This document shows positions 2-31,428 of a stretch of DNA of 34,312 bases, piece by piece (positions within the stretch are counted from its first letter, which is position 1; each line of letters starts with the position of its first letter). The position numbers were made by a program, and so were the translations under genes. The notes below the pieces were generated by a model. That model saw only the letters and a program-made list of their open reading frames with translations, searched no databases and was not told where the DNA came from. The stretch covers positions 1 through 34,312 of the forward strand of contig JAIMBK010000034.1 of NCBI GenBank assembly GCA_023511535.1, written 5' to 3'. Source of the stretch: Armatimonadota bacterium (GTDB taxonomy: Bacteria > Bacillota > Desulfotomaculia > Desulfotomaculales > Nap2-2B).

Positions 2-893
2 GGGAGGGATGCCCAAAAAAACAAAGAAATACTGCGATACATGGAGTTTTTTAACCGGACAAATGTCCTAAGTGTAAATTCAAATAAAAATATCTTCTTT
101 AATGATCCGGAGAGAATTTTAGCTTCAGTCCGCGAAGCTGTTTCAAAGTGGTTTAGAAGAAAGCGAAAGGCAACGCGAAGATGCCTTGCGTAGGGCTCAA
201 GGCTATGATAGGGCAAGGGAACGTTTGGATGCGATTCATGAGGCTTTAAAAACGGAATTAACCAGTCGCACTTCTCTGATTGAAAAGGTGCTGGAACTAC
301 CGGAAAAAGAAATGGAGCGGTTTGCCGAACTTGTAAACCAGGTATTTATTACATTCCGCACAGTCGAAGGCCTTTGTCCTGTTCGGTTTATATCGGGAAA
401 AAAAGGCAGAGGAAGCGCTCAATCGTATACCTGGAATATTTCAACGGGTGATGGGCGGCCGCTTGGAGCCCTTTCTACGGGACAAAAAGCACAGTTGGGT
501 TTATCTCTACTTATAAGTCTTAATATTGCTCTTGATCATCTGATTCCTCATAAGATCATAGCCCTTGATGATACTACGACGGCTCTGGACATGGCTCAGT
601 TGCCCCGGGAGGCTTCCCTTTTACGGCAGATTGCTTATGGTTCCAACTTTAATGAGTCATTTCCCCGCCGCCAGCTTTTTATTGTCAGCCATCACGAGGA
701 TCTTACTCACCGTCTTATCGACTTTCTTATTCCGCCCGAAGGAAGATCAATGCACATTTTAAACATTACTGATTGGAGTCCTGGGAAGGGACCAAAAATT
801 GAACAGTTAAAAGTAGAACCTGCTCTTTCGGCAACGGAAAGAACAAAATCCAGGTTCGTTCGTTTACTATGCTCAGGATTAAGGGTGGATTAA
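2..893 (+). pseudogene. SMC/RecN-like ABC ATPase, C-terminal part, frameshifted
   Basis: This is the 3' part of a gene that begins outside the window. The C-terminal portion shows an ABC-type signature (LSTGQKAQLGLSLL), a Walker B strand (KIIALDDTTTALD) and an H-loop (FIVSHHEDL), preceded by a charged, probably coiled-coil stretch. This is the layout of SMC/RecN/Rad50-like DNA-linked ATPases. The frame is broken: positions 2-196 read as protein in one frame (..NDPERILASVREAVSKWF) while the sequence continuing to the stop at 891-893 (..EESERQREDALRRAQGYD) lies in another. The switch falls near 141-158, consistent with a single-base indel or a sequencing error. The longest intact piece would start at a TTG at 186. 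It sits 25-34 bases before the DUF499 ATPase gene, so both probably belong to one accessory operon. The exact family is not identified; a defence or DNA-repair role is inferred from the neighbour only. Confidence 0.7.
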
Positions 894-927
894 ATGTCTT
901 GCATATCTTTAGAAACGGGTGATAGTC

Positions 928-3882
928 ATGGCGCTGAAACCCTGGTACAAAGTGGTCACGCCCCGGGAGGATCTACGTGAGGGCAAGCCGCTGGATGCGG
1001 CAGAATTCGCTGTTCACCTCGATCAGGTCCGGGACGGGCGTGCCCCGGCGGATTACCAGAATCCAGAACGATTCTTTGAACGCACGTACCTGACCCAAAA
1101 TCTGACGGCTTTGGCTGCCGAGGTGATCCGGCGTCTGTCCGGCATAAAGACCGAGACTTCGGCCGTATTCAACATGGCCACCCAGTTCGGCGGCGGGAAA
1201 ACCCACGCCTTGACTTTACTATATCACCTGGCCAAAAACGGCCCATCCTCTAATAATTGGGTTGGGGTAGATAAAATGCTGGCTAAAGCCGGGGTGCGCA
1301 GTGTTCCCCAGGCAGCTACAGCGATCTTTGTCGGTACAGAATTCGATTCCCTTATCGGTCGCGGCGGTAACGACGGTACGCCAATCCGGAAGACTCCGTG
1401 GGGTGAGATTGCCTTCCAGCTTGCTGGCGAGCAGGGCCTGGCTCTGGTGGCGGAACACGAAAAAAAGATGATTGCCCCGGCAGGAGACGTGATCCGCCGA
1501 CTCCTTCCAAAGGGCAAGCCCTGCCTGATTCTTTTTGACGAACTGATGAATTATGTCAGCCGGAACCGGAAAAGCGGCCTTTCGGCGCAGCTTTACGATT
1601 TTCTCCAGAACCTGTCTGAGACGGCCCGCGGCGAGGATAATATAGTCCTGGTGGTTTCTATACCGGCCTCCGAACTGGAGATGACTGCGGAAGACCAATC
1701 GGATTACGACCGGCTAAAAAAGCTTTTGGATCGCCTCGGTAAAGCGGTTATTATATCCGCCGAGGCTGAAACATCCGAGATCATTCGCCGCCGGTTGTTT
1801 GAATGGGATCCAAGAGCCGTAACCCCGGACGGGAGAGTGATGCTTACCCGGGATGCAATCCAGGTTTGTAACGAATATGCTGATTGGGTAGTTGACCACC
1901 GTCAGCAGATTCCTGGCTGGTTCCCCGTCGATCATGCCCGGGAAGCTTTCGCCGCGACCTATCCCTTCCACCCGATGGTGCTCTCTGTTTTTGAGCGCAA
2001 ATGGCAGGCTCTTCCGCGCTTCCAACAAACGCGTGGGATCTTAAGGCTTTTGGCCCTCTGGGTGGCCAGGGCGTATCAGGAAGGTTTCAAAGGTGCGCAC
2101 CGCGATCCCCTCATCAGCCTGGGGACCGCTCCGCTGGATGACCCGCTTTTCCGGGCAGCAGTATTTGAGCAACTTGGCGAGCCACGCCTGGAAGGAGCCG
2201 TTACCGCCGATATCTGCGGCAAAAAGGATTCTTTTGCCGTCCGGCTGGACAATGAGGCCGTGGATACAATCAGAAAGGCCCGTTTGCACCGGAAGGTGGC
2301 CACGGTGATCTTCTTTGAGTCCAATGGGGGACAGCTCCGGGGTGAAGCGACTGTGCCGGAGATCCGCCTGGCCGTGGCTGAACCCGAACTCGATATTGGG
2401 AACGTTGAGATGGCCCTGGAGGCGCTTGAGTCCTCCTGTTTCTTCCTCTCAGTTGAGCGAAACCGCTACCGCTTTAGCCTTACTCCCAACTTGAACAAGC
2501 TCCTGGCAGACCGCCGGGCCAGCATTCAGGCGGATAAGATAGATGAACGGGTGCGCAGCGAGATTCAAAAAGTTTTTACCGAGGGTAATGGTATAAAACC
2601 AATTTATTTCCCGGAAAAAAGCAACCAGATCCCGGATCGCCCCGCGCTTACACTGGTTGTATTATCACCCGAACATTCTATGCAAGACAAAAAGACGCTC
2701 GAACTGATCGAGTCTATGACCAGGGAGCATGGAACTTCCGCCCGAACCTTTAAGAGTGCGCTGATCTGGGCGGTGGCTGATACTGATGCTTCGCTCAAAG
2801 AAGAGGCCCGCAAGGCCCTGGCCTGGGAGGACATCCGCAGTGAACAGGACGAACTGCGCCTGGACGAAACGCAGAAGCGCCAGTTGGCAGAGAACCTGAA
2901 AAAAGCCCAGCGCGACCTCAAGGAGTGCGTGTGGCGCTCATATAAAAACGTTGCCCTTCTCGGCAAGGATAACACCATCCGCGTGGTGGACCTGGGGCTG
3001 GTTCACTCCAGTGCGGCCGACACAATGGTGGCGCTTATTCTCAACCGCCTGCGCCAGGACGGAGACGTAGAAGAGGGTGTAAGCCCGAATTTCCTGGTGC
3101 GAAACTGGCCGCCGGCTTTTCAGGAGTGGAGCACCAAAGCAGTGCGGGATGCCTTCTTTGCCTCCCCGCAGTTTCCCCGCTTGCTAAACGTAGAGAGCAT
3201 CAAGGAAACAATTGCCCGGGGCGTGTCCAGTGAGCTTATTGCTTACGTAGGTAAGTCTGCAGACGGAAGCTATGAGCCTTTTTACTTCGGCGTTAGTATT
3301 GCTGCCAGCGATGTCGAGTTCTCCGAAGACATGTTCATCATCACCGCTGAAGAGGCGAGGAAGCACATTGAGCCGCCAAAGCTGACTACTTTGGTAATTT
3401 CTCCCCAGGACATATTGATTGAACCAGGCAAGAAGCATACGTTTATGGCCAGGGGGTTGGATCAACATGGCCGCAAGATTGCCGTCACGGATGTTATTTG
3501 GAGAGCAACCGGTGGAACAATTGATCAGGATGGGGTTTTCCAGGCAGGCCAGGACGAAGGTACGTTTATGATTATTGCCACTGTCGGTACCGTTAGTGGC
3601 CGGGCCAGGGTCAACATCGCCAGGCGGGGAGTGATGCCGCCGCTACCCCCTCCGCTACCGCCACCTGGTCCGACAAAACTTTCCTGGAGTGGCGAGGTGC
3701 CCCCGCAAAAGTGGATGAATTTCTATACTAAGGTTCTCTCAAGGTTTGCCGTTGGCAAAGGGTTGAAAATTTCTATTAATATCGAGGTTACCCAAGAGGA
3801 AGGCATCTCCGCGCAGAAGGTAGAAGAGACCAAAGTCGCCCTCCGGGAACTGGGGCTAAAGGACGAAGTTGAAATTTCTTAA
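928..3882 (+). CDS. DUF499-family AAA+-like ATPase with Ig-like domain
   Basis: This protein of about 984 residues matches the DUF499 (COG1483) predicted ATPases. A Walker A-like FGGGKTH lies at about residues 87-93 and a Walker B (CLILFDELMNYV) at about 199-210. The family is known to co-occur with DUF1156 DNA methylases and helicases in predicted phage-defence islands; no methylase or helicase is in this window, and partners may lie upstream. Near residue 815-900 there is a bacterial Ig-like segment (ISPQDILIEPGKK.., DVIWRATGGTIDQDG), then a polyproline linker (PPLPPPLPPPGP) and a conserved-looking C-terminal domain of about 75 residues. An in-frame GTG at 919 also exists, but ATG 928 gives the natural MALKPWYKVV start. 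The ATPase assignment is strong; the defence role is inferred from family context. Confidence 0.85.
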   Translation: MALKPWYKVVTPREDLREGKPLDAAEFAVHLDQVRDGRAPADYQNPERFFERTYLTQNLTALAAEVIRRLSGIKTETSAVFNMATQFGGGKTHALTLLYHLAKNGPSSNNWVGVDKMLAKAGVRSVPQAATAIFVGTEFDSLIGRGGNDGTPIRKTPWGEIAFQLAGEQGLALVAEHEKKMIAPAGDVIRRLLPKGKPCLILFDELMNYVSRNRKSGLSAQLYDFLQNLSETARGEDNIVLVVSIPASELEMTAEDQSDYDRLKKLLDRLGKAVIISAEAETSEIIRRRLFEWDPRAVTPDGRVMLTRDAIQVCNEYADWVVDHRQQIPGWFPVDHAREAFAATYPFHPMVLSVFERKWQALPRFQQTRGILRLLALWVARAYQEGFKGAHRDPLISLGTAPLDDPLFRAAVFEQLGEPRLEGAVTADICGKKDSFAVRLDNEAVDTIRKARLHRKVATVIFFESNGGQLRGEATVPEIRLAVAEPELDIGNVEMALEALESSCFFLSVERNRYRFSLTPNLNKLLADRRASIQADKIDERVRSEIQKVFTEGNGIKPIYFPEKSNQIPDRPALTLVVLSPEHSMQDKKTLELIESMTREHGTSARTFKSALIWAVADTDASLKEEARKALAWEDIRSEQDELRLDETQKRQLAENLKKAQRDLKECVWRSYKNVALLGKDNTIRVVDLGLVHSSAADTMVALILNRLRQDGDVEEGVSPNFLVRNWPPAFQEWSTKAVRDAFFASPQFPRLLNVESIKETIARGVSSELIAYVGKSADGSYEPFYFGVSIAASDVEFSEDMFIITAEEARKHIEPPKLTTLVISPQDILIEPGKKHTFMARGLDQHGRKIAVTDVIWRATGGTIDQDGVFQAGQDEGTFMIIATVGTVSGRARVNIARRGVMPPLPPPLPPPGPTKLSWSGEVPPQKWMNFYTKVLSRFAVGKGLKISINIEVTQEEGISAQKVEETKVALRELGLKDEVEIS

Positions 3883-7848: not shown

Positions 7849-7909
7849 CGCGGCACATTAGTGATCTTTACCTGCTGATGATCATTTGCTCGCGGGGAGA
7901 AAAGCAGTA

Positions 7910-8866
7910 ATGCAGATTGGTAGCATTAAGCTGGCCAACCCGGTAATTGCTGCTCCGATGGCCGGGGTGACGGACCGGGCGTACCGGATGATCGCCAGGG
8001 AATTCGGCTGCGGCCTGGCGTGCACCGAAATGGTGAGCGACCAGGCCCTTTTATACGGCAACCCGCGCACGCTGACCATCTTGAATCACGACGGCGAGCC
8101 CGGTCCTTTGAGTGTTCAAATTTTCGGGTCCAACCCGGAATATATGGCCCGGGCGGCGAAAATCGTGGAAGGGTTGGGGGCGGACATCATCGACATCAAC
8201 ATGGGCTGCCCCACCCCGAAGATTGTCAACAACGGCGAAGGGGCGGCGCTGATGAAAAATCCGGAACTGGCGGCGCGGATCGTCCGGGAGGTGGTGAACC
8301 GGGTGAGCGTGCCGGTGACGGTGAAAATGCGCAAGGGGTGGGACGAAAATTCCGTCAACGCCGTGGAGGTGGCCGGGCTGGCGGAGGAGGCGGGCGCCGC
8401 GGCGGTGACCGTGCACGGACGCCTGCGGAGCCAGTTTTACAGCGGAAAAGCCGACTGGGATATGATCCGGGCGGTGAAGGAAGCGGTGCGCATTCCGGTG
8501 ATTGGCAACGGCGACGTCTGGAGCCCGCAAGATGCGCTGGAAATGATGCGCGTGACGGGGTGCGACGCGGTCATGATCGGACGCGCCGCGCTGGGCAACC
8601 CCTGGATTTTCCGGCAGACGGTGCATTACCTGGCCACCGGGGAGGTGCCGGCGCCGCCCACCCTGCAGGAGAAGATAGAAGTGGCCTTAAAGCACTTTGA
8701 ACTCCTTCTCGAAACCAAAGGGGAAAGGGTGGCCGTTCTGGAAATGCGCAAACACGCGGCCTGGTACCTGAAAGGAACGCCCGGAGCGGCTAAAATGCGG
8801 GTCAGGATCAACCAGGCGGCCAGTGCGGAGGAACTGAAGAAGATTTTAACGGAAGTTTACGTTTAG
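7910..8866 (+). CDS. dusB: tRNA-dihydrouridine synthase, DusB type
   Basis: This flavoenzyme reduces specific uridines in the tRNA D-loop to dihydrouridine using NADPH. The 318-residue TIM-barrel protein shows LANPVIAAPMAGVTDRAYR at the N-terminus, the active-site INMGCPTPKIV with catalytic Cys100, VTVKMRKGW, VTVHGR and the FMN phosphate-binding NGDV..GCDAVMIGRAALGNPW. ATG 7910 is preceded by GGGGAG at 7894-7899. It follows coaX closely; the coaX-dusB pairing occurs in related Firmicutes. A weak hairpin lies beyond the stop, shared with the convergent hepT gene. Confidence 0.95.
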   Translation: MQIGSIKLANPVIAAPMAGVTDRAYRMIAREFGCGLACTEMVSDQALLYGNPRTLTILNHDGEPGPLSVQIFGSNPEYMARAAKIVEGLGADIIDINMGCPTPKIVNNGEGAALMKNPELAARIVREVVNRVSVPVTVKMRKGWDENSVNAVEVAGLAEEAGAAAVTVHGRLRSQFYSGKADWDMIRAVKEAVRIPVIGNGDVWSPQDALEMMRVTGCDAVMIGRAALGNPWIFRQTVHYLATGEVPAPPTLQEKIEVALKHFELLLETKGERVAVLEMRKHAAWYLKGTPGAAKMRVRINQAASAEELKKILTEVYV

Positions 8867-8912: not shown

Positions 8913-9449
8913 TTAAAAGGACCTCTCCTTTTCTGCCGGGCGCAGTTCCTCGATTAATTTCGCGATAAACGACTCAAATTCCTGAATTCTCTTTTTCACC
9001 ATGTCAAGAATGTCTCCCATGTTTTCCGCCAGGTGGCCCATTTTCGACCAGCGTAATTCACTGGCGTAAGCATGGCGAAACAAGTGGCGAAAGCGCCGGT
9101 ATTCATCCAGTTCTTCCCTTAGCTCAGGTGAAATCACCGCTGGCCGAAGCCCTTCCAGTTCCACGGCCATGCTTCTTAAAAGTTCGCGGTGCCAATCGGC
9201 GGCTTTATCCGGACCTCCGTCAATCTGGCGGGAAATGCGGTCGAAGATGGTTTCGATCCCGGTGTAGAAGTGGTGCAGATAACCGGCCATGGCCATCAAA
9301 TCAGCATCGGGAACAGGACCCGTTCTGGCGTTGACAGCTTTCAAAAGAGCCGTGGCCTTTTCTTTAATTCTTTCCACGACCCGTAGATCTTCGTTTACTT
9401 CTGCCACCAGGCGTTTCAGCCGGGCTATTTTTCTTTCCCTGGCCGTCAT
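8913..9449 (-). CDS. HepT-like HEPN-domain toxin (RNase)
   Basis: This 178-residue helical protein carries the HEPN ribonuclease motif RX4HXY as R121-HLFR-H126-A-Y128. In characterised HepT toxins the Arg and His are catalytic, and the Tyr is AMPylated by the partner MntA nucleotidyltransferase, which neutralises the RNase. It is encoded immediately downstream of the mntA-like gene, with an 86-base overlap in another frame. The start ATG at 9449 has GGAAGGGGTGG just upstream inside the mntA coding sequence. It is longer than many HepT proteins (about 110-145 residues), with a charged N-terminal helix of about 40 residues. Family assignment is from motif and context; toxicity is inferred. Confidence 0.85.
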   Translation of the reverse strand: MTARERKIARLKRLVAEVNEDLRVVERIKEKATALLKAVNARTGPVPDADLMAMAGYLHHFYTGIETIFDRISRQIDGGPDKAADWHRELLRSMAVELEGLRPAVISPELREELDEYRRFRHLFRHAYASELRWSKMGHLAENMGDILDMVKKRIQEFESFIAKLIEELRPAEKERSF

Positions 9450-9801
9450 ACAAAACCACCCCTTCCTTGTTCACCCGTTCTTTTAAACTATCTACGGCGC
9501 TTTCGAGAAGGACCAGGTCAACCGGGAAAGGCTGTGCTACACCTTCGGCCAACCCGTAGGCCTTCAGGTGGTGCTCCTCCGGAAGGCCGGCCACGGCCAG
9601 ATCGATATCCGAATCCTGATCGAATTCGCCCGTCGCCAGGGAGCCAAAAAGGTATATCTTTTTCGCTCCGTAACGGCAGGCCAGTTGCCGGGCGATTTCA
9701 CCCGCCTTTGCCCGGGCCTGGCGAGCCTTTCTGGCGATTTGTTTTTCTTCCCGCTTTAACTGACGAAGGTGGCCGGTGATGTATTTCTTGTCTTCCGGCA
9801 T
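9364..9801 (-). CDS. MntA-like nucleotidyltransferase antitoxin
   Basis: This 145-residue protein contains the minimal nucleotidyltransferase core: GS at 53-54 in IYLFGSLATGEF, the catalytic DID at 65-67 in SDIDLAV, and a third acidic residue D95 in VDLVL. Known MntA antitoxins add AMP to a tyrosine next to the HEPN active site of HepT. An N-terminal basic helix of about 40 residues precedes the core. The last 25-30 residues (rich in Lys, Arg, Ser, Gly) overlap the hepT start and look unconserved, as though the stop was displaced. The ATG follows GGGAGGGGGTG. A good promoter lies just upstream on the same strand. Confidence 0.87.
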   Translation of the reverse strand: MPEDKKYITGHLRQLKREEKQIARKARQARAKAGEIARQLACRYGAKKIYLFGSLATGEFDQDSDIDLAVAGLPEEHHLKAYGLAEGVAQPFPVDLVLLESAVDSLKERVNKEGVVLYDGQGKKNSPAETPGGRSKRRSTGRGKN

Positions 9802-10050: not shown

Positions 10051-10113
10051 GTCTTTTGATACTTGTCTCGATTTTGGGGTTGACTTTCTAGCTTTTAACA
10101 GGAGGGCTCCTTC

Positions 10114-11205
10114 ATGGAAAGTTTTGCTTTCCTCATCCACCCCCTGGACGTCCGGGACGTGGCCAGGAAGTTTCCCTTCACCCGGCGCCTTCCCGAAAAG
10201 GTGGTCGAAGGCATCTTTCGCCTGGTGCCGCCGATGAAACTTTCCCGGATCACCGGGGTGAAGACCCCCTCCAGCGAGGCGGAAGGGTGGTTTGTTTCCT
10301 GCCCCCTGACCGCCCGGCAGATGCTGACGCTCCCGGAAAAGTTTGTCTACAAGCGGCTGATTCAGACGGGCCGGATTGCCGAAAGGCTGGGGGCGAAAAT
10401 TTTGGGGCTGGGGGCCTTCAGCTCCGTGGTGGGGGACGCAGGAATAACGATTGCCAGGAATTTAAAAATTGCGGTCACTACGGGCAACAGCTACACCGTG
10501 GCCACAGCCGTCGAAGGGGCAAAGGAAGCGGCCCGCTTGATGGGGCACGATCTCAAGCAGGCGCACGTGGTCATTTTGGGGGCGACCGGCTCCATCGGCA
10601 AAGTGTGCGCGCTTTTGCTGGCCCGGGAGGTGCGCCGGATGACCCTGGTGGCCCGGAACAAGGCCAATTTAGAGGAAGTGGCCCGGAAAATTCTTTACGA
10701 AACCGGCCTCTCCGTAAAAGTTACGGACAACGTTAAACAGGCCCTGGCCGACGCGCACGTGGTTATTGCCGTGACCAGCGCCACCGACGCCATCATCGGC
10801 CCCCGGGATCTAATGCCCGGCGCGGTGGTCTGCGATGTGGCGCGCCCGCGCAACGTCAGCCGGCAGGTGGCTGCAGAACGGGACGACGTCCTGGTGATCG
10901 AAGGCGGCGTGATCGAAGTGCCGGGGGAAGTGGATTTTCACTTCAATTTCGGTTTTCCGCCGCGGACGGCTTACGCCTGCATGGCCGAAACAATGATCCT
11001 GGCTTTGGAGGGGCGCTACGAGAATTTTTCCCTCGGCCGGGACATCACCATTGAACGGGTGGAGGAAATCAGCCGGCTGGCGAAGAAGCACGGCTTCAAA
11101 CTGGCCGGCTTCCGGAGCTTTGAGCGGGCCGTCAGCAAGGAGGAAATCGAACGCATCAGGGCTCGCGCCCGGCAGCGCACCGGCGGAAAAACAGCGGTCA
11201 ATTGA
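10114..11205 (+). CDS. acyl-ACP reductase-like dehydrogenase (COG5322 type)
   Basis: This 363-residue NAD(P)-binding protein resembles cyanobacterial long-chain acyl-ACP reductase (AAR), which makes fatty aldehydes. Seen in the sequence: LGLGAFSSVVGD followed by TTGNSYTVA (about 98-130), a Rossmann motif ILGATGSIGK (154-163), VIEGGVIEVPGEVDF (261-275), and Cys289 in RTAYACMAETMILALEGR, at the place of the acyl-accepting Cys of AAR. The C-terminus (GRDITIERVEEISRLAKKHG) also fits. Such proteins are often labelled shikimate or amino-acid dehydrogenase-like. The ATG follows AGGAGGG. No aldehyde-deformylating oxygenase or fatty-acid gene is nearby, so the substrate in this organism is unknown. 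It stands alone between two accessory modules. Confidence 0.75.
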   Translation: MESFAFLIHPLDVRDVARKFPFTRRLPEKVVEGIFRLVPPMKLSRITGVKTPSSEAEGWFVSCPLTARQMLTLPEKFVYKRLIQTGRIAERLGAKILGLGAFSSVVGDAGITIARNLKIAVTTGNSYTVATAVEGAKEAARLMGHDLKQAHVVILGATGSIGKVCALLLAREVRRMTLVARNKANLEEVARKILYETGLSVKVTDNVKQALADAHVVIAVTSATDAIIGPRDLMPGAVVCDVARPRNVSRQVAAERDDVLVIEGGVIEVPGEVDFHFNFGFPPRTAYACMAETMILALEGRYENFSLGRDITIERVEEISRLAKKHGFKLAGFRSFERAVSKEEIERIRARARQRTGGKTAVN

Positions 11206-11269: not shown

Positions 11270-11914
11270 CTACCAACCTTCCGAAAAAGTGTCTGTTCTT
11301 CCTGCCGAAAACCATTTCTTCAAAGTCGCTTTCAACTTTACGAACGCCGGATTGACGCAGCTTTTCAGACTAACAGACCTCGCCAACTGATCATATAGCG
11401 AAGAAGAACGGGCCTTCCCGGCCAGCTTCAAAGCCTGTTCAAAGGCCATTTTTGGTTTATTGGGTTTGCCCTGGCGGTCTTCGGTAAAGCCCTCCTGGAT
11501 CAACCAGGACCGCAAATCCACCTCTCTTCCGGTCCATCCGATGATCCGGTCCACGTGGGGAGAATTAGTCCAGACCCATATTTCCAGTTCCGGAGAAATA
11601 ACGACGGCTGCAGCCCGGTCACCCCAACCGGAATGAAACAAACGTTCTTCAATCTGTCTTTCCAGTTCTTTTCTGGATACCTTTTCCTGGCCGCAGCCTT
11701 CATGATCAAGCATGACCAGTGCGTGGGCATAGATGTTTACCATCGGCCGCAAGAAATCGTGCCCGCGCAAAAGGCAGCCGGGGTCGCGTTCGGGATGAAC
11801 GAAACAATCACAAGTCAGTTGACGTATCCCCAGCGCCTGGGGGCGCGTCAGCAAACCCTTAATTGTGTACTCCATGTCTTTGTCGGCCACGAGGACCGTC
11901 AGGTCCCTGATCAT
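11270..11914 (-). CDS. small TOPRIM/DUF4276-like protein coupled to ATPase
   Basis: This 214-residue protein is not firmly recognised. Its N-terminus (MIRDLTVLVADKDMEYTIKG, with E15) followed by ALVMLDHEGCG (D70, E72) resembles the acidic-residue layout of TOPRIM-fold nucleases such as DUF4276-like proteins. A His/Cys-containing stretch (CDCFVHPERDPGC) lies between. The ATG at 11914 overlaps the stop of the upstream ATPase gene as ATGA, so the two are translationally coupled and probably work together. The C-terminal part is basic. ATPase plus TOPRIM pairs are known as defence modules (PARIS AriA-AriB, split OLD), so a phage-defence effector role is a reasonable inference. Confidence 0.65.
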   Translation of the reverse strand: MIRDLTVLVADKDMEYTIKGLLTRPQALGIRQLTCDCFVHPERDPGCLLRGHDFLRPMVNIYAHALVMLDHEGCGQEKVSRKELERQIEERLFHSGWGDRAAAVVISPELEIWVWTNSPHVDRIIGWTGREVDLRSWLIQEGFTEDRQGKPNKPKMAFEQALKLAGKARSSSLYDQLARSVSLKSCVNPAFVKLKATLKKWFSAGRTDTFSEGW

Positions 11915-13170
11915 CCCAGCACACCCCCGGCAAAAAGGACACCCAGGCTGGTTTCCCCCTGCCATTCCTTCAACGCCGGGTGTTCGCTGCCCAGAACGAT
12001 ATCGGTGGCGCCTTCGGCGGTCCTGGCGAAGCAAAGGATTTTCTCAGGCTCAGCCAGACTTAAAATGACCGGGGAATGGGTGGCCAGGAGAATCTGCGCA
12101 TTGTAAACGGAAGACAGGGACTGGAACATGGTTTCTACGGCCCGGGGGTGAATGCCGTTTTCCGGTTCCTCAATCAAATAAATGCCCTTAAAATCAGGCA
12201 GATAAGCAGGCAACGTAAGCGCCAGGAGGCGCAGCGTCCCATCTGACGCCATCCATGACGGCACGCTTAATCCGCCGCGATAGACCAGCACCAGGTAACA
12301 GTGTTTGTCGTCTTCCCGCACGATGGTCTGGATGTCTTCCAGGTCCGGGAGCGCCGTCTGCAGGTGGGCGATCCAGTCTCTAAACCGTTCAGGTGCTTTT
12401 TCCCATAACCGGGCAACCACCCAGGGCAGGTTGGACCCGTCCGGCTTGAATCCCCGCACCTGTCCGGGGGGGCTGGCCCGGCGTAAAAGCAGGCTGTTCA
12501 GGATAAACTGCTGCACGCCTTCCGTTAACAAGCCTTTCAACCAGGTGGCTACCGGAAACTTGGATTCATCCTGAGGAAGATTGCCCAGGGCCGATTTGCG
12601 TGGGCCCAGTTTAAATGCGGGAGCCCATCCCTTGCCGAATTCTGAGTATACTTCAGAATAGTAATTATCATTTCCCCCGTAGACTTTGTTGACGACAGTG
12701 CGACCATATTTTTTGCTCTTTCCTTTAGGGGTCAGGATTGTTTGCGGCGGCTCAAGATAATCTGGAAAGAGGATTTTTTCTCTGTGGGGAAGAGGAGTTG
12801 CCTTTTTTAACAAAACCTTTTCAGCAAGTATTTCCGTTTCCCCCTGCACATTACCCAACTTGACTTCGTAGCGTACGGTATCATAGGGCTGCTCGCCCAA
12901 TTGGACCCGGCGATCGGCGGGAATTCCGGCCTCAATGGCCAGTTCAAAACTATCCCCGCTCCGCCCCCAGACCAGATCTTGAAAATTTTTTGTTCTTTCA
13001 CTTACTGCCGCGTCCAGGCCTTCCGATACCAGGCTTCCCAGAAAGGAAATTACGTCCAGGAACGTCGTTTTTCCGCTGGCGTTGGGACCGATCAAAACGT
13101 GAAAAGGGCCAAGCGGTTGTTGGACATACCTCAGACAGCGAAAATTTAAGGCTTCAATCAAAGTTATCAT
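11911..13170 (-). CDS. OLD/AAA_21-like ATPase, sensor partner of TOPRIM-like protein
   Basis: This 419-residue ABC/SMC-type ATPase is without a long coiled coil. Walker A GPNASGKT is at 28-35 (after FRCLRYVQQPLGPFHVLI), Walker B IYLIEEPENGIHP at about 330-342, and an H-loop LLATHSPVIL at about 362-371. The signature region is SDGTLRLLALTLP. This is the AAA_21/AAA_15 architecture of RecF/OLD-like ATPases found in anti-phage systems. The gene begins with ATG preceded by GCGAGGG and ends in a 4-base overlap with the TOPRIM-like gene. The family assignment is solid; a role as a phage-infection sensor is inferred from the two-gene arrangement. Confidence 0.88.
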   Translation of the reverse strand: MITLIEALNFRCLRYVQQPLGPFHVLIGPNASGKTTFLDVISFLGSLVSEGLDAAVSERTKNFQDLVWGRSGDSFELAIEAGIPADRRVQLGEQPYDTVRYEVKLGNVQGETEILAEKVLLKKATPLPHREKILFPDYLEPPQTILTPKGKSKKYGRTVVNKVYGGNDNYYSEVYSEFGKGWAPAFKLGPRKSALGNLPQDESKFPVATWLKGLLTEGVQQFILNSLLLRRASPPGQVRGFKPDGSNLPWVVARLWEKAPERFRDWIAHLQTALPDLEDIQTIVREDDKHCYLVLVYRGGLSVPSWMASDGTLRLLALTLPAYLPDFKGIYLIEEPENGIHPRAVETMFQSLSSVYNAQILLATHSPVILSLAEPEKILCFARTAEGATDIVLGSEHPALKEWQGETSLGVLFAGGVLG

Positions 13171-13998: not shown

Positions 13999-14475
13999 AT
14001 GAAAAAAGAAAAAGAAGTGCCCCTTACTTTAGCGGGGCTAAAAAAGCTGGAGGACGAGCTGGAAGTGCTCAAGTCCGTCCGGCGGCGGGAGATCGCGCAG
14101 CGGATCAAGCAGGCCATCGAGTTTGGTGATATCTCCGAAAATTCGGAGTACGAGGACGCCAAAAATGAACAGGCCTTCGTGGAAGGCCGCATTTTGACCC
14201 TGGAAAAGATGCTCCGCAACGCCCGCATCATTGACCGGGAGGCGGGGGCAACGGAAGTGGTGGATCTCGGTTCGACGGTAACTTTGCGCGATCTCGAAAA
14301 AGGGAACGAATTTCAGTACACCATTGTCGGCTCCGCGGAGGCAGATCCCGGAGCTAAAAAAATCTCCAACGAGTCGCCCGTGGGCAGGGCGATTTTAGGC
14401 AAGCAAAAAGGGAGCGTGGTGGAAATTACCGTCCCGGCCGGCCTTTTTAAATACCAGATCGTCGAGATATCGTAG
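13999..14475 (+). CDS. greA: transcription elongation factor GreA
   Basis: This 158-residue factor rescues backtracked RNA polymerase by stimulating transcript cleavage. The N-terminal coiled coil (about 8-80) carries the acidic tip seen in [25 protein letters not shown], and the C-terminal FKBP-like domain ends in [26 protein letters not shown]. Length is standard. The ATG follows GGGGAGACGAAAGCAG. greA precedes lysS, as in several Firmicutes, but a terminator-like hairpin separates them. Confidence 0.97.
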
Positions 14476-14789: not shown

Positions 14790-16292
<1,503 letters not shown>

Positions 16293-18312: not shown

Positions 18313-18801
18313 ATGGAGAAAGTCCTGGAAATTTTGGAAATCCTGGAGTCGGACGCCCGTCTGGAGGCGGCGGACATCGCCGTCATGCTGGGCATGGAAA
18401 AAGAAGAAGTGCAGCGGACGATTAAAGAACTGGAGAAAAATAAAATTATTTTAAGGTACATGACGCTGGTGAACTGGGAAAAGGCCGGCGACGAGAAGGT
18501 AATGGCCATGATCGAGGTCCGCGTGGCCCCGCAGCGGGAAGTCGGGTACGACGCCGTGGCCGAGCGCATCTGCCGGTTCCCCGAGGTCCGGAGCGTGCGC
18601 CTGGTTTCCGGGGCGTACGACCTGGCGGTTTTCATCGAAGGAAAAAGTATGCGGGAGATCAGCAATTTCGTGGCCACCAAACTGGCCACCATTGAAGGAG
18701 TCCTCAGTACGGCCACGCATTTTATCCTGAAAACCTACAAACAGGACGGCGTGATGTTCGAAGACGGCGAAAAAGACAGGAGGCTGGCAGTTTCCCCATG
18801 A
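18313..18801 (+). CDS. Lrp/AsnC-family transcriptional regulator (AlaR-like)
   Basis: This 162-residue regulator has an N-terminal winged helix (about 1-60: LEAADIAVMLGMEKEEVQRTIKEL) and a C-terminal RAM ligand-binding domain (about 68-145: MAMIEVRVAPQREVG.., VRSVRLVSGAYDLAVFIEG). The ATG at 18313 follows GGAGGTGG directly after the T-box terminator. The gene overlaps the next by ATGA. The pair matches Bacillus subtilis alaR-alaT, where the Lrp-type protein activates the alanine transaminase gene. AlaR identity is inferred from this arrangement and the alanine-type T-box. Confidence 0.92.
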   Translation: MEKVLEILEILESDARLEAADIAVMLGMEKEEVQRTIKELEKNKIILRYMTLVNWEKAGDEKVMAMIEVRVAPQREVGYDAVAERICRFPEVRSVRLVSGAYDLAVFIEGKSMREISNFVATKLATIEGVLSTATHFILKTYKQDGVMFEDGEKDRRLAVSP

Positions 18802-20042
18802 AAACGTGGAACTCGTACGTCAACCCGCTGGTTAGCTCCCTCCCGCCTTCGGGAATCCGGAGGTTTTTTGACCTGGTGACGGAAACCAAAGGGGTCATTT
18901 CCCTGGGCGTAGGCGAGCCGGACTTCATCACCCCCTGGCACATCCGGGAGGCCTGCATTTACTCCCTGGAAAAAGGGTACACCATGTATACGTCCAACCA
19001 CGGCCTGCTCGCGTTGCGCCAGGCGATTGCAGCGGATTTAGAAGCAGCCTGCGGGGTGACCTACAATCCAAAAAATGAAATCCTGGTCACGGTAGGGGTG
19101 AGCGAGGGTCTGGACCTGGCCGTGCGCGCGCTGACCTGCCCCGGCGACGAAGTTTTAATCCCCGAGCCTTCCTACGTATCTTACGCCCCCTGTGTTCTGC
19201 TGGCCGGCGGAAAAGTGATCACCGTTCCGACGACGATGAACGAAGGCTTCCGGGTTACCGCCGGAAAAATCGAGGCGGCCCTTACCCCCCGGACTAAAAT
19301 TTTAATCTTAAGCTACCCGAATAATCCCACCGGGGCCGTCATGGACCGGCGGACGCTTTTAGAGATTGCCGAGCTTGTCCAGGCGCGCGATCTGCTGGTT
19401 ATTTCCGACGAGATTTACAGCCGGCTCACCTACACCGGGGAACATACCTGCCTGGCCGGTTTGCCCGGGATGCGGGAGCGCACCGTTTTGTTGAACGGTT
19501 TTTCCAAAGCCTACGCCATGACGGGGTGGCGGATCGGTTACGCAGCCGGAAATCCGGACTTTATCGCCGCCATGACCAAAATTCACCAGTACACGCTGCT
19601 CTGCGCCCCCATTACCGCGCAGATGGCCGCCCTGGAAGCGCTGAAAAACGGCCGGCTGGCCATGACCCAGATGGTCCAGCAGTATAACCGGCGCCGCCTG
19701 CTGGTGATGCACGCTTTCCGGGACATGGGCCTGCCCTGCTTTGAGCCGGGCGGAGCCTTTTACGCCTTTCCGGAGATTGCCGGCACCGGCCTTTCTTCCG
19801 AAGAGTTTGCCGAGCGGCTTTTGCAGGAAGAAAAGGTCGCGGTGGTTCCCGGCAACGCCTTCGGCCCCAGCGGAGAAGGTTTTGTACGCTGTTCCTACGC
19901 CGCCTCCGTGGAGGACCTGACGGAAGCCTTCCGGCGCCTCGCCGCCTTTTGCCGGGCGCACGGCCTGCGGCCCAAAACAATCAGCGCCCCCCGCCCGCTC
20001 CCCGGAGAGCGAAGGCCGCTGGCGGGCGGGGCAACGGGCTAG
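18798..20042 (+). CDS. class I/II PLP aminotransferase (AlaT/PatA-like)
   Basis: This 414-residue aminotransferase of fold type I has SLGVGEPDFITP near 35-46, YPNNPTGA (173-180), SDEIY (203-207), and the PLP lysine K237 in FSKAYAMTGWRIGY. A conserved substrate-carboxylate Arg sits in FVRCSYA. It is translationally coupled to the Lrp gene (ATGA) under a probable alanine T-box, which points to alanine synthesis from pyruvate; aspartate or aromatic activity cannot be excluded by sequence alone. The last 25 residues (RPKTISAPRPLPGERRPLAG) are an unusual Pro/Arg-rich tail beyond the family core, reading into a repeat-bearing gap. Confidence 0.92.
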   Translation: MKTWNSYVNPLVSSLPPSGIRRFFDLVTETKGVISLGVGEPDFITPWHIREACIYSLEKGYTMYTSNHGLLALRQAIAADLEAACGVTYNPKNEILVTVGVSEGLDLAVRALTCPGDEVLIPEPSYVSYAPCVLLAGGKVITVPTTMNEGFRVTAGKIEAALTPRTKILILSYPNNPTGAVMDRRTLLEIAELVQARDLLVISDEIYSRLTYTGEHTCLAGLPGMRERTVLLNGFSKAYAMTGWRIGYAAGNPDFIAAMTKIHQYTLLCAPITAQMAALEALKNGRLAMTQMVQQYNRRRLLVMHAFRDMGLPCFEPGGAFYAFPEIAGTGLSSEEFAERLLQEEKVAVVPGNAFGPSGEGFVRCSYAASVEDLTEAFRRLAAFCRAHGLRPKTISAPRPLPGERRPLAGGATG

Positions 20043-30732: not shown

Positions 30733-31428
30733 CTACTGGGCTACGTTTATTTTCACCTTGCGCCTGGTGGCTACGTCGGACTTGGGGGCCCTGATCTCCA
30801 GAATGCCGTTGGCGTAAGTGGCTTCGACCTGTTCGGAGCGGATGCTGGTGGGGAGCGCAATGGTCCGGAACAGGCTCGTCGGCCTGTTGCCCGCCCAGGC
30901 GGTGGCCGAGATGGTCATGGAGTCGTCGGTAACGGTTAGGCTGAGGTCGTTTAAGCTGACGTTGGGAAGCTCGCAGGCCACCACAACGTCGCTGTTGGTC
31001 TCCGCCAGGTCGACCCGCATCTGGGCCATTCCAGCCGACGACTGGATTGTCTGGGCGGGTACCCAGGCTGCCGCGCCGGCGGGGTTGAAGAACGGGTTTA
31101 CGGACGCTCCGGGGATCAGGCCGGCGGTGGTCATGGCCGGGCTAAAGGCCAGCGCCTGGCTGAGGAAGGGGTTTATGCCTGCGGGCATTGCCGCCCCCAC
31201 GGCCAGCTGACCCGGAAGGTTTATGGCCGAGAAAGGATGAAGAAGCGGGTTTTGGGCGATAAAGGGGTTTATTCCCATGGCGGCGGAACTGAGCGCCGGG
31301 TTGAAGGAGTAGGTGACGGTCGTCCCGGGCATTCCGGTGCGCAACGAAACAGGAAAGGCCGTCGCCCCGCTTTGGAAGCCCTGGCTGAACGCCACCGTCT
31401 GGTTAGGATTGAGTGTGGAAATGTACAC
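30733..31428 (-). CDS. Hsp20/alpha-crystallin protein with NPF-rich N-terminal arm
   Basis: This 231-residue small heat-shock protein has an alpha-crystallin domain in residues about 135-231 (MRVDLAETNSDVVVACELPNV.., SLFRTIALPTSIRSEQVEATYANGILEIRAPKS). The first 130 residues are a long hydrophobic, Pro/Ala/Asn-rich arm with repeated motifs: GINPF at 52-56 and 84-88, NPLLHPF at 60-66 and VNPFFNP at 110-116. Most bacterial Hsp20 arms are 30-50 residues, so this is unusual and may drive assembly or substrate binding. The GTG start follows GGAGG by 11 bases. A second Hsp20 gene lies 1.5 kb away on the same strand. Confidence 0.9.
   Translation of the reverse strand: MYISTLNPNQTVAFSQGFQSGATAFPVSLRTGMPGTTVTYSFNPALSSAAMGINPFIAQNPLLHPFSAINLPGQLAVGAAMPAGINPFLSQALAFSPAMTTAGLIPGASVNPFFNPAGAAAWVPAQTIQSSAGMAQMRVDLAETNSDVVVACELPNVSLNDLSLTVTDDSMTISATAWAGNRPTSLFRTIALPTSIRSEQVEATYANGILEIRAPKSDVATRRKVKINVAQ

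Follow-up and report, generated by a model that had tools for sequence, protein, structure and literature searches.

Enzymes that reduce acyl thioesters to aldehydes

Conversion of an acyl thioester to an amine, and the fused protein architecture that can carry it out, are already known from PigE, TamH and a Thermincola fusion. PigE, of prodigiosin biosynthesis, is one fused polypeptide encoded in a secondary-metabolite cluster, with an N-terminal thioester reductase domain, which has the catalytic cysteine, followed by a transaminase; it provides, or is proposed to provide, a route from a thioester-bound acyl group to an amine, and in vitro its reduction step was seen only with lysate and not with purified protein (PMC8341465). 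TamH, of tambjamine YP1 biosynthesis, is also fused and proceeds from thioester to aldehyde to amine, with a dedicated cysteine and a GxxGxxG motif; its proposed natural substrate is C12-ACP, and it turns the aldehyde derived from C12-ACP into an amine (PMC9594044). In the domain order opposite to that of PigE, a class-III transaminase precedes a COG5322/acyl-ACP reductase (AAR) domain in fusions from Thermincola ferriacetica (Tfer_2018), Thermaerobacter spp. and Pseudomonas putida (PP_2782). These fusions retain the equivalent of the AAR catalytic Cys294, their transaminase halves act on unsubstituted aliphatic aldehydes, and the assays given for the Thermincola and Thermaerobacter proteins concern the transaminase half (PMC10829540). 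Transaminase-thioester reductase fusions have so far been seen as oddities found in gene clusters for pigments and alkaloids, or as tools for biocatalysis.

Two further systems provide points of comparison. Cyanobacterial AAR (TIGR04058; PDB 6JZQ, 6JZU, 6JZY and 6JZZ) carries Cys294 and the nucleotide loop GATGDIG; Arg189 and Arg314 belong to its NADPH phosphate pocket and Tyr247 to its acyl tunnel (PMC7089970). Glutamyl-tRNA reductase is likewise a Cys-thioester reductase that passes its aldehyde to a class-III PLP enzyme, GSA aminomutase, but it acts on aminoacyl-tRNA and belongs to a clearly separate family; its fold is a distant match to the nucleotide domain of the protein described below.

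A stand-alone reductase homologue in an anaerobic Bacillota genome

The window, by which we mean the whole 34,312-nucleotide stretch analysed (contig JAIMBK010000034.1 of assembly GCA_023511535.1), comes from an anaerobic member of the Bacillota related to Desulfovirgula. Positions 10114-11205 form one open reading frame of 363 codons, starting with ATG, whose product is 85% identical to its counterpart at locus L002 and 84% identical to that at L111 (Desulfovirgula sp.). This is the sole member of the AAR family in the genome, which we refer to as G000.

10100 to 10106, + strand: AGGAGGG, a strong canonical ribosome-binding site as read from the sequence, 7 nt before the ATG
10114 to 11205, + strand: aar-like gene, encoding a 363-aa homologue of NADPH-dependent acyl-thioester reductases (from sequence, homology and fold model)

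The best PDB sequence match of the protein is the reductase domain of PigE (4ppm; phmmer E 2.4e-34), and Synechococcus elongatus AAR is also matched (6jzq; E 7e-28). Among NCBIfam models the highest score belongs to PigE (226.6 bits, confined to the N-terminal, reductase half of the model), whereas the AAR equivalog TIGR04058 yields 123.8 bits, far under its cut-off of 449.7; these scores put the protein nearer to the reductase domain of PigE than to AAR. A Pfam search found no transaminase domain in the 363 residues. An AlphaFold model built from 52 natural homologues reached a mean pLDDT of 93.2, and a Foldseek search with this model ranked all AAR entries first (6jzy, E 1.1e-24; TM 0.74-0.78), followed by the TAD reductase domain of carmabin biosynthesis. 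With E-values this low from both sequence and structure, the resemblance is not due to chance. The initial annotation, which had described an AAR homologue in an anaerobic Firmicute and proposed comparing a predicted structure with cyanobacterial AAR, is upheld as to family and host, and the predicted fold is AAR-like.

The active-site residues were placed in a joint alignment of AAR, PigE, 52 stand-alone homologues and nine fusion proteins.

10579 to 10599, + strand: codons 156-162, GATGSIG dinucleotide loop, aligned with GATGDIG at residues 162-168 of AAR
10654 to 10656, + strand: Arg181 codon, aligned with Arg189 in AAR's NADPH phosphate pocket
10843 to 10845, + strand: Arg244 codon, at the position of the AAR tunnel residue Tyr247
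10978 to 10980, + strand: Cys289 codon, aligned with the AAR catalytic Cys294
11038 to 11040, + strand: Arg309 codon, aligned with Arg314 in AAR's NADPH phosphate pocket

Both landmarks that had been singled out from the sequence at the outset, Cys289 as the acyl-carrying cysteine and GATGSIG as the nucleotide site, align with their AAR counterparts. The catalytic position is cysteine in 50 of the 52 stand-alone homologues and in all nine fusions, and the glycine loop is kept in nearly all homologues. Two of the three arginines that form the AAR phosphate pocket (R189, R193 and R314) are present as R181 and R309; the third is N185 here, a position mostly occupied by lysine or arginine among the homologues.

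Departures from cyanobacterial AAR are found in the acyl tunnel and at a residue that contacts aldehyde-deformylating oxygenase (ADO). The tunnel residues M21, Y23, Y26 and Y247 align with F20, F22, R25 and R244, the short segment bearing Met279 is absent, and the ADO-contact residue Arg73 is replaced by proline. At the Tyr247 position, arginine is found in 48 of 52 stand-alone homologues, lysine in all nine fusions and leucine in PigE. Because an aromatic tunnel residue of AAR is arginine here and lysine in the fusions, a long-chain acyl substrate is not assured, and the conserved arginine or lysine makes a non-fatty acyl substrate possible. Judged by homology, Cys-dependent thioester reductase chemistry is well supported, and a preference for C16-C18 acyl groups is not.

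Distribution and genomic neighborhood

Orthologues of the reductase occur in 59 of the 60 nearest genomes, at 59-85% identity and across nearly the whole order. In a wider sample of 399 genomes from the window's phylum, 242 carry the gene, mostly in single copy; named carriers include Desulfovirgula, Desulfofundulus, Pelotomaculum, Thermoanaerobacter, Caldanaerobacter, Pelosinus, Moorella, Caloramator and Halonatronum, and the family extends beyond the Bacillota into Chloroflexota and Armatimonadota bins. The typical gene order is birA-bioY-coaX-dus-AAR-greA-lysS. Whereas PigE is encoded in a secondary-metabolite cluster, the reductase here stands by itself among genes of this kind, which serve only as markers of synteny.

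7886 to 8866, + strand: dus, tRNA-dihydrouridine synthase, conserved upstream neighbor
13999 to 14475, + strand: greA, conserved downstream neighbor in relatives; here an inserted AAA gene pair intervenes
14796 to 16292, + strand: lysS, conserved downstream neighbor

The absence of ADO from the neighborhood, noted in the initial annotation, holds more strongly at the genome level: a search for PF11266 gave no match in G000 or in 40 relatives, with Synechococcus elongatus as a positive control.

Using SpoIVA as a marker of spore formation in the 399 genomes, we found the reductase in 227 of 336 spore formers and 15 of 63 other genomes. We rejected a role as a core sporulation gene, since 109 spore formers do not have it and the enrichment is confounded by phylogeny.

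Two cassettes interrupt the conserved order in the window. Between dus and the reductase gene, a HepT-like gene and an MNT-type nucleotidyltransferase gene (8913-9801, - strand) form a probable toxin-antitoxin pair; it is a recent insertion, since this interval spans just ~150 bp in L111 and L002, the closest relatives. Between the reductase gene and greA lies a probable two-gene defense cassette (11270-13170, - strand), comprising an AAA_21 ATPase that PADLOC labels HEC-01A/Mad3-like and a small, weakly Mad4-like partner; this pair is missing at the corresponding spot in L111.

Split and fused forms of the probable transaminase partner

Fifteen of the 60 nearest genomes encode a fusion protein of about 880 aa, with an N-terminal class-III transaminase (Aminotran_3, E 4e-90) and a C-terminal AAR domain, the domain order of the fusions described in PMC10829540. 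The closest PDB relative of the transaminase half is the transaminase domain of PigE. Genomes lacking the fusion have instead a stand-alone PigE-like class-III transaminase (~470 aa) that shares 40-48% identity with that of the fusion. G000 is of this second type, with reductase and transaminase encoded by separate genes on different contigs.

G000 contig 24, 31296 to 32687, - strand: stand-alone PigE-like transaminase, 512 bits to the transaminase half of the PigE model

The stand-alone transaminase lies near ffh in 19 of 20 loci inspected, and a ylxM-ffh locus is common to it and some of the fusions. A transaminase gene within the window itself (18798-20042) was considered as a partner and rejected, being of class I/II and not PigE-like.

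The two forms have a complementary distribution. An intact stand-alone reductase without the fusion is found in 43 of the 60 genomes, 42 of which have the stand-alone transaminase; the exception is 84% complete. Among the 15 fusion genomes, the stand-alone reductase is absent from 11, present as a relic lacking the catalytic cysteine in three and intact in one, and a separate transaminase (at E<=1e-70) is missing from 12. The two remaining genomes comprise one with a fragment of no clear class and one, 57% complete, with neither form. This pattern suggests that the fused and split forms replace each other. The three relics (L034:2804-3892, L035:2972-4033 and L037:3044-4102) still lie between dus and greA/lysS as open reading frames; in them the cysteine has become serine, leucine or phenylalanine and the glycine loop of the nucleotide site is altered. 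In a tree built from AARs, fusions and the cyanobacterial and PigE proteins, the fusions form one clade, stand-alone reductases of the window's type belong to a different lineage, and the Cys-less relics cluster with the stand-alone copies of the window's order; the branches leading to PigE and to cyanobacterial AAR have a length of 7, too long for either to be placed.

Reductase and transaminase also occur together across the phylum. Both are present in 206 of the 399 genomes and neither in 147, with 36 having the reductase only and 10 the transaminase only (odds ratio 84, Fisher p ~1e-60, uncorrected for phylogeny). The 36 genomes, of the 242 with a reductase, that have no transaminase at the threshold used include some incomplete bins and others with lower-scoring transaminases. 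Although most genomes keep the two genes at different places, the transaminase gene directly precedes the reductase gene in Geosporobacter, Alkaliphilus and Anaerovirgula. A single gene separates the two in an Armatimonadota bin, and in Thermoanaerobacter wiegelii and six more of the sampled genomes they share a strand at a distance of 6-9 kb.

Two of these linked loci have further genes in the row. The Armatimonadota bin (L185:1420-7345) encodes, in sequence, the transaminase, a polyketide-cyclase/START-like protein, the reductase, a protein of the f6 family (described below), greA and lysS, which hints at a polyketide-like acyl group on a carrier as the possible substrate. In Geosporobacter (L171:4592-10159), the transaminase and reductase are followed by a DUF2229 gene, a further gene of the 2-hydroxyacyl-CoA dehydratase-like kind and one for a BadF-type ATPase, possibly in one operon.

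Two additional protein families at these loci

A protein of about 180 aa, with a helix-turn-helix (HTH) and a C-terminal domain and no family above cut-off beyond the HTH, is encoded in 36 of the 60 genomes (a 37th match is weak). All 36 true matches adjoin a component of the pair: the stand-alone reductase in 19, the fusion in 15 (where the HTH gene is directly upstream) and the stand-alone transaminase in two, G000 and its congener G001. The HTH protein is probably a regulator of the reductase and transaminase.

G000 contig 24, 32848 to 33372, + strand: HTH gene beside the transaminase

The G000 copy is 73% identical to the fusion-associated copy at L036 and, G001 aside, 49-56% identical to the other HTH proteins compared. 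It is thus of the fusion-associated type, which suggests descent from an ancestor that had the fusion at this locus. Its position beside the transaminase could consequently be an inheritance from that fusion-bearing ancestor, which counts against the split-module reading proposed below.

The second family, f6, comprises proteins of about 300 aa, with L127:5079-5987 among the 36 loci that encode one; in Thermoanaerobacter, Pelosinus, Moorella and others the f6 gene is flanked by those for the HTH protein and the reductase. It has no match in Pfam or NCBIfam, and its predicted fold gives only weak, low-identity matches (TM ~0.5) to AAR, at 9% identity, and to the carmabin TAD domain.

A proposed split pathway from acyl thioester to amine

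Since the reductase of anaerobic Bacillota travels with a transaminase and a regulator, it probably supplies the aldehyde of an unrecognized acyl-to-amine pathway, and not of alkane or plasmalogen synthesis. Our preferred reading, which we consider likely while allowing for substantial doubt, is that the window gene encodes the NADPH-dependent reductase of a thioester-to-amine module whose two halves are split. Cys289 would take over an acyl group from ACP or CoA, a hydride would come from NADPH at the GATGSIG loop, and the released aldehyde would go to the PigE-like class-III transaminase of contig 24 for conversion to a primary amine. The two enzymes would be the halves of a module that sister genera make as one transaminase-reductase protein, and the HTH protein encoded beside the transaminase would be its probable regulator. 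The module is based on observed homology, catalytic residues, fold, co-occurrence, linkage and the complementary distribution of split and fused forms; from these we infer the reductase activity, the direction of the reaction, the hand-over of aldehyde to the transaminase and regulation by the HTH protein. Against it, the class-III transaminase family is promiscuous, and the G000 enzyme could conceivably have another main job.

The initial annotation had suggested that the aldehyde might serve plasmalogen synthesis or that the enzyme might act on another acyl carrier substrate. The latter suggestion stands, and the former loses ground to genomic evidence pointing to use of the aldehyde by the class-III transaminase. 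Production of long-chain fatty aldehydes from acyl-ACP for plasmalogens or other ether lipids would agree with the AAR homology, with the DUF2229 and BadF genes that follow the transaminase and reductase in Geosporobacter, and with three DUF2229 loci in G000. DUF2229 is not a specific domain; it is associated with 2-hydroxyacyl-CoA dehydratase activases as well as plasmalogen synthases. Bacterial plasmalogens can take up added long-chain aldehydes, unlike alcohols, but the known anaerobic route, PlsA/PlsR, directly reduces the sn-1 acyl ester of a finished diacyl lipid, which weakens the idea (PMC9702350). In the loci examined, it is a transaminase that the reductase is linked to, with no such link to lipid genes. 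This linkage and the replacement of tunnel Tyr247 by arginine also speak against the plasmalogen use of the aldehyde, which we regard as quite improbable. The names given by databases (amino-acid, shikimate or quinate dehydrogenase) are the least credible of all readings: Shikimate_DH (PF01488) is indeed the best Pfam domain match, but it spans just residues 140-255, the nucleotide-binding domain, AAR is the top match of the fold over its full length, and the AAR cysteine is conserved in 50 of 52 homologues.

The pair might also run in reverse or in catabolism, with the transaminase deaminating a mono- or diamine to an aldehyde, which the AAR-like protein would oxidize to an acyl thioester with NADP+. 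Class-III transaminases are reversible, and the G000 enzyme also scores well as a putrescine aminotransferase (434 bits, under the cut-off of 612). Such a catabolic role is nonetheless unlikely, as relatives of known biology (PigE and TamH) run reductively, the NADPH phosphate pocket is kept, and near-universal single-copy conservation in the order fits biosynthesis better than an optional catabolic function. Nor do we expect the reductase to act independently, handing its aldehyde to an alcohol dehydrogenase or an aldehyde:ferredoxin oxidoreductase with only an incidental link to the transaminase. The 36 genomes that have the reductase and no transaminase at threshold, the separate location of the two genes in most genomes and three Chloroflexota loci (L182, L186 and L190) with the reductase next to unrelated genes would all suit this arrangement, but the fusions, the replacement of split by fused forms, the shared linkage to the HTH gene and the repeated adjacency in distant taxa favor the split thioester-to-amine module.

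We further propose, tentatively and with the odds somewhat against it, that much of the anaerobic Bacillota, together with some Chloroflexota and Armatimonadota, has an unrecognized and mostly single-copy pathway at housekeeping loci, leading from a carrier-bound acyl group to a primary amine by split or fused enzymes, accompanied by a dedicated HTH regulator and, in many lineages, by the f6 protein, with a conserved amine metabolite or lipid new to these bacteria as its product. Our literature search covered open publications. It found no earlier work on a stand-alone AAR in Firmicutes and, within its incomplete coverage, no account of the split pair, of how widely it occurs among anaerobic Bacillota, of fusions taking its place, of the HTH protein or of the arginine or lysine in the tunnel. 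The split pair brings the two activities into a majority of the sampled genomes of the phylum, at conserved core loci and under misleading names such as shikimate dehydrogenase. If the proposal is correct, anaerobic Bacillota commonly make an amine of ancient origin that awaits identification, and thermostable two-enzyme routes from acyl groups to amines would be a further gain.

Other features of the window

At the left end of the contig, a DUF499 ATPase with a strong match to HmaC of the Hma defense system (417 bits) is encoded together with an SMC-like fragment (186-3882, + strand); the remainder of an Hma system would fall past the contig end. Toward the other end of the window, a gene at 30733-31428 (- strand) encodes an HSP20-type small heat-shock protein, whose long N-terminal extension has a high content of proline, alanine, glycine and phenylalanine.
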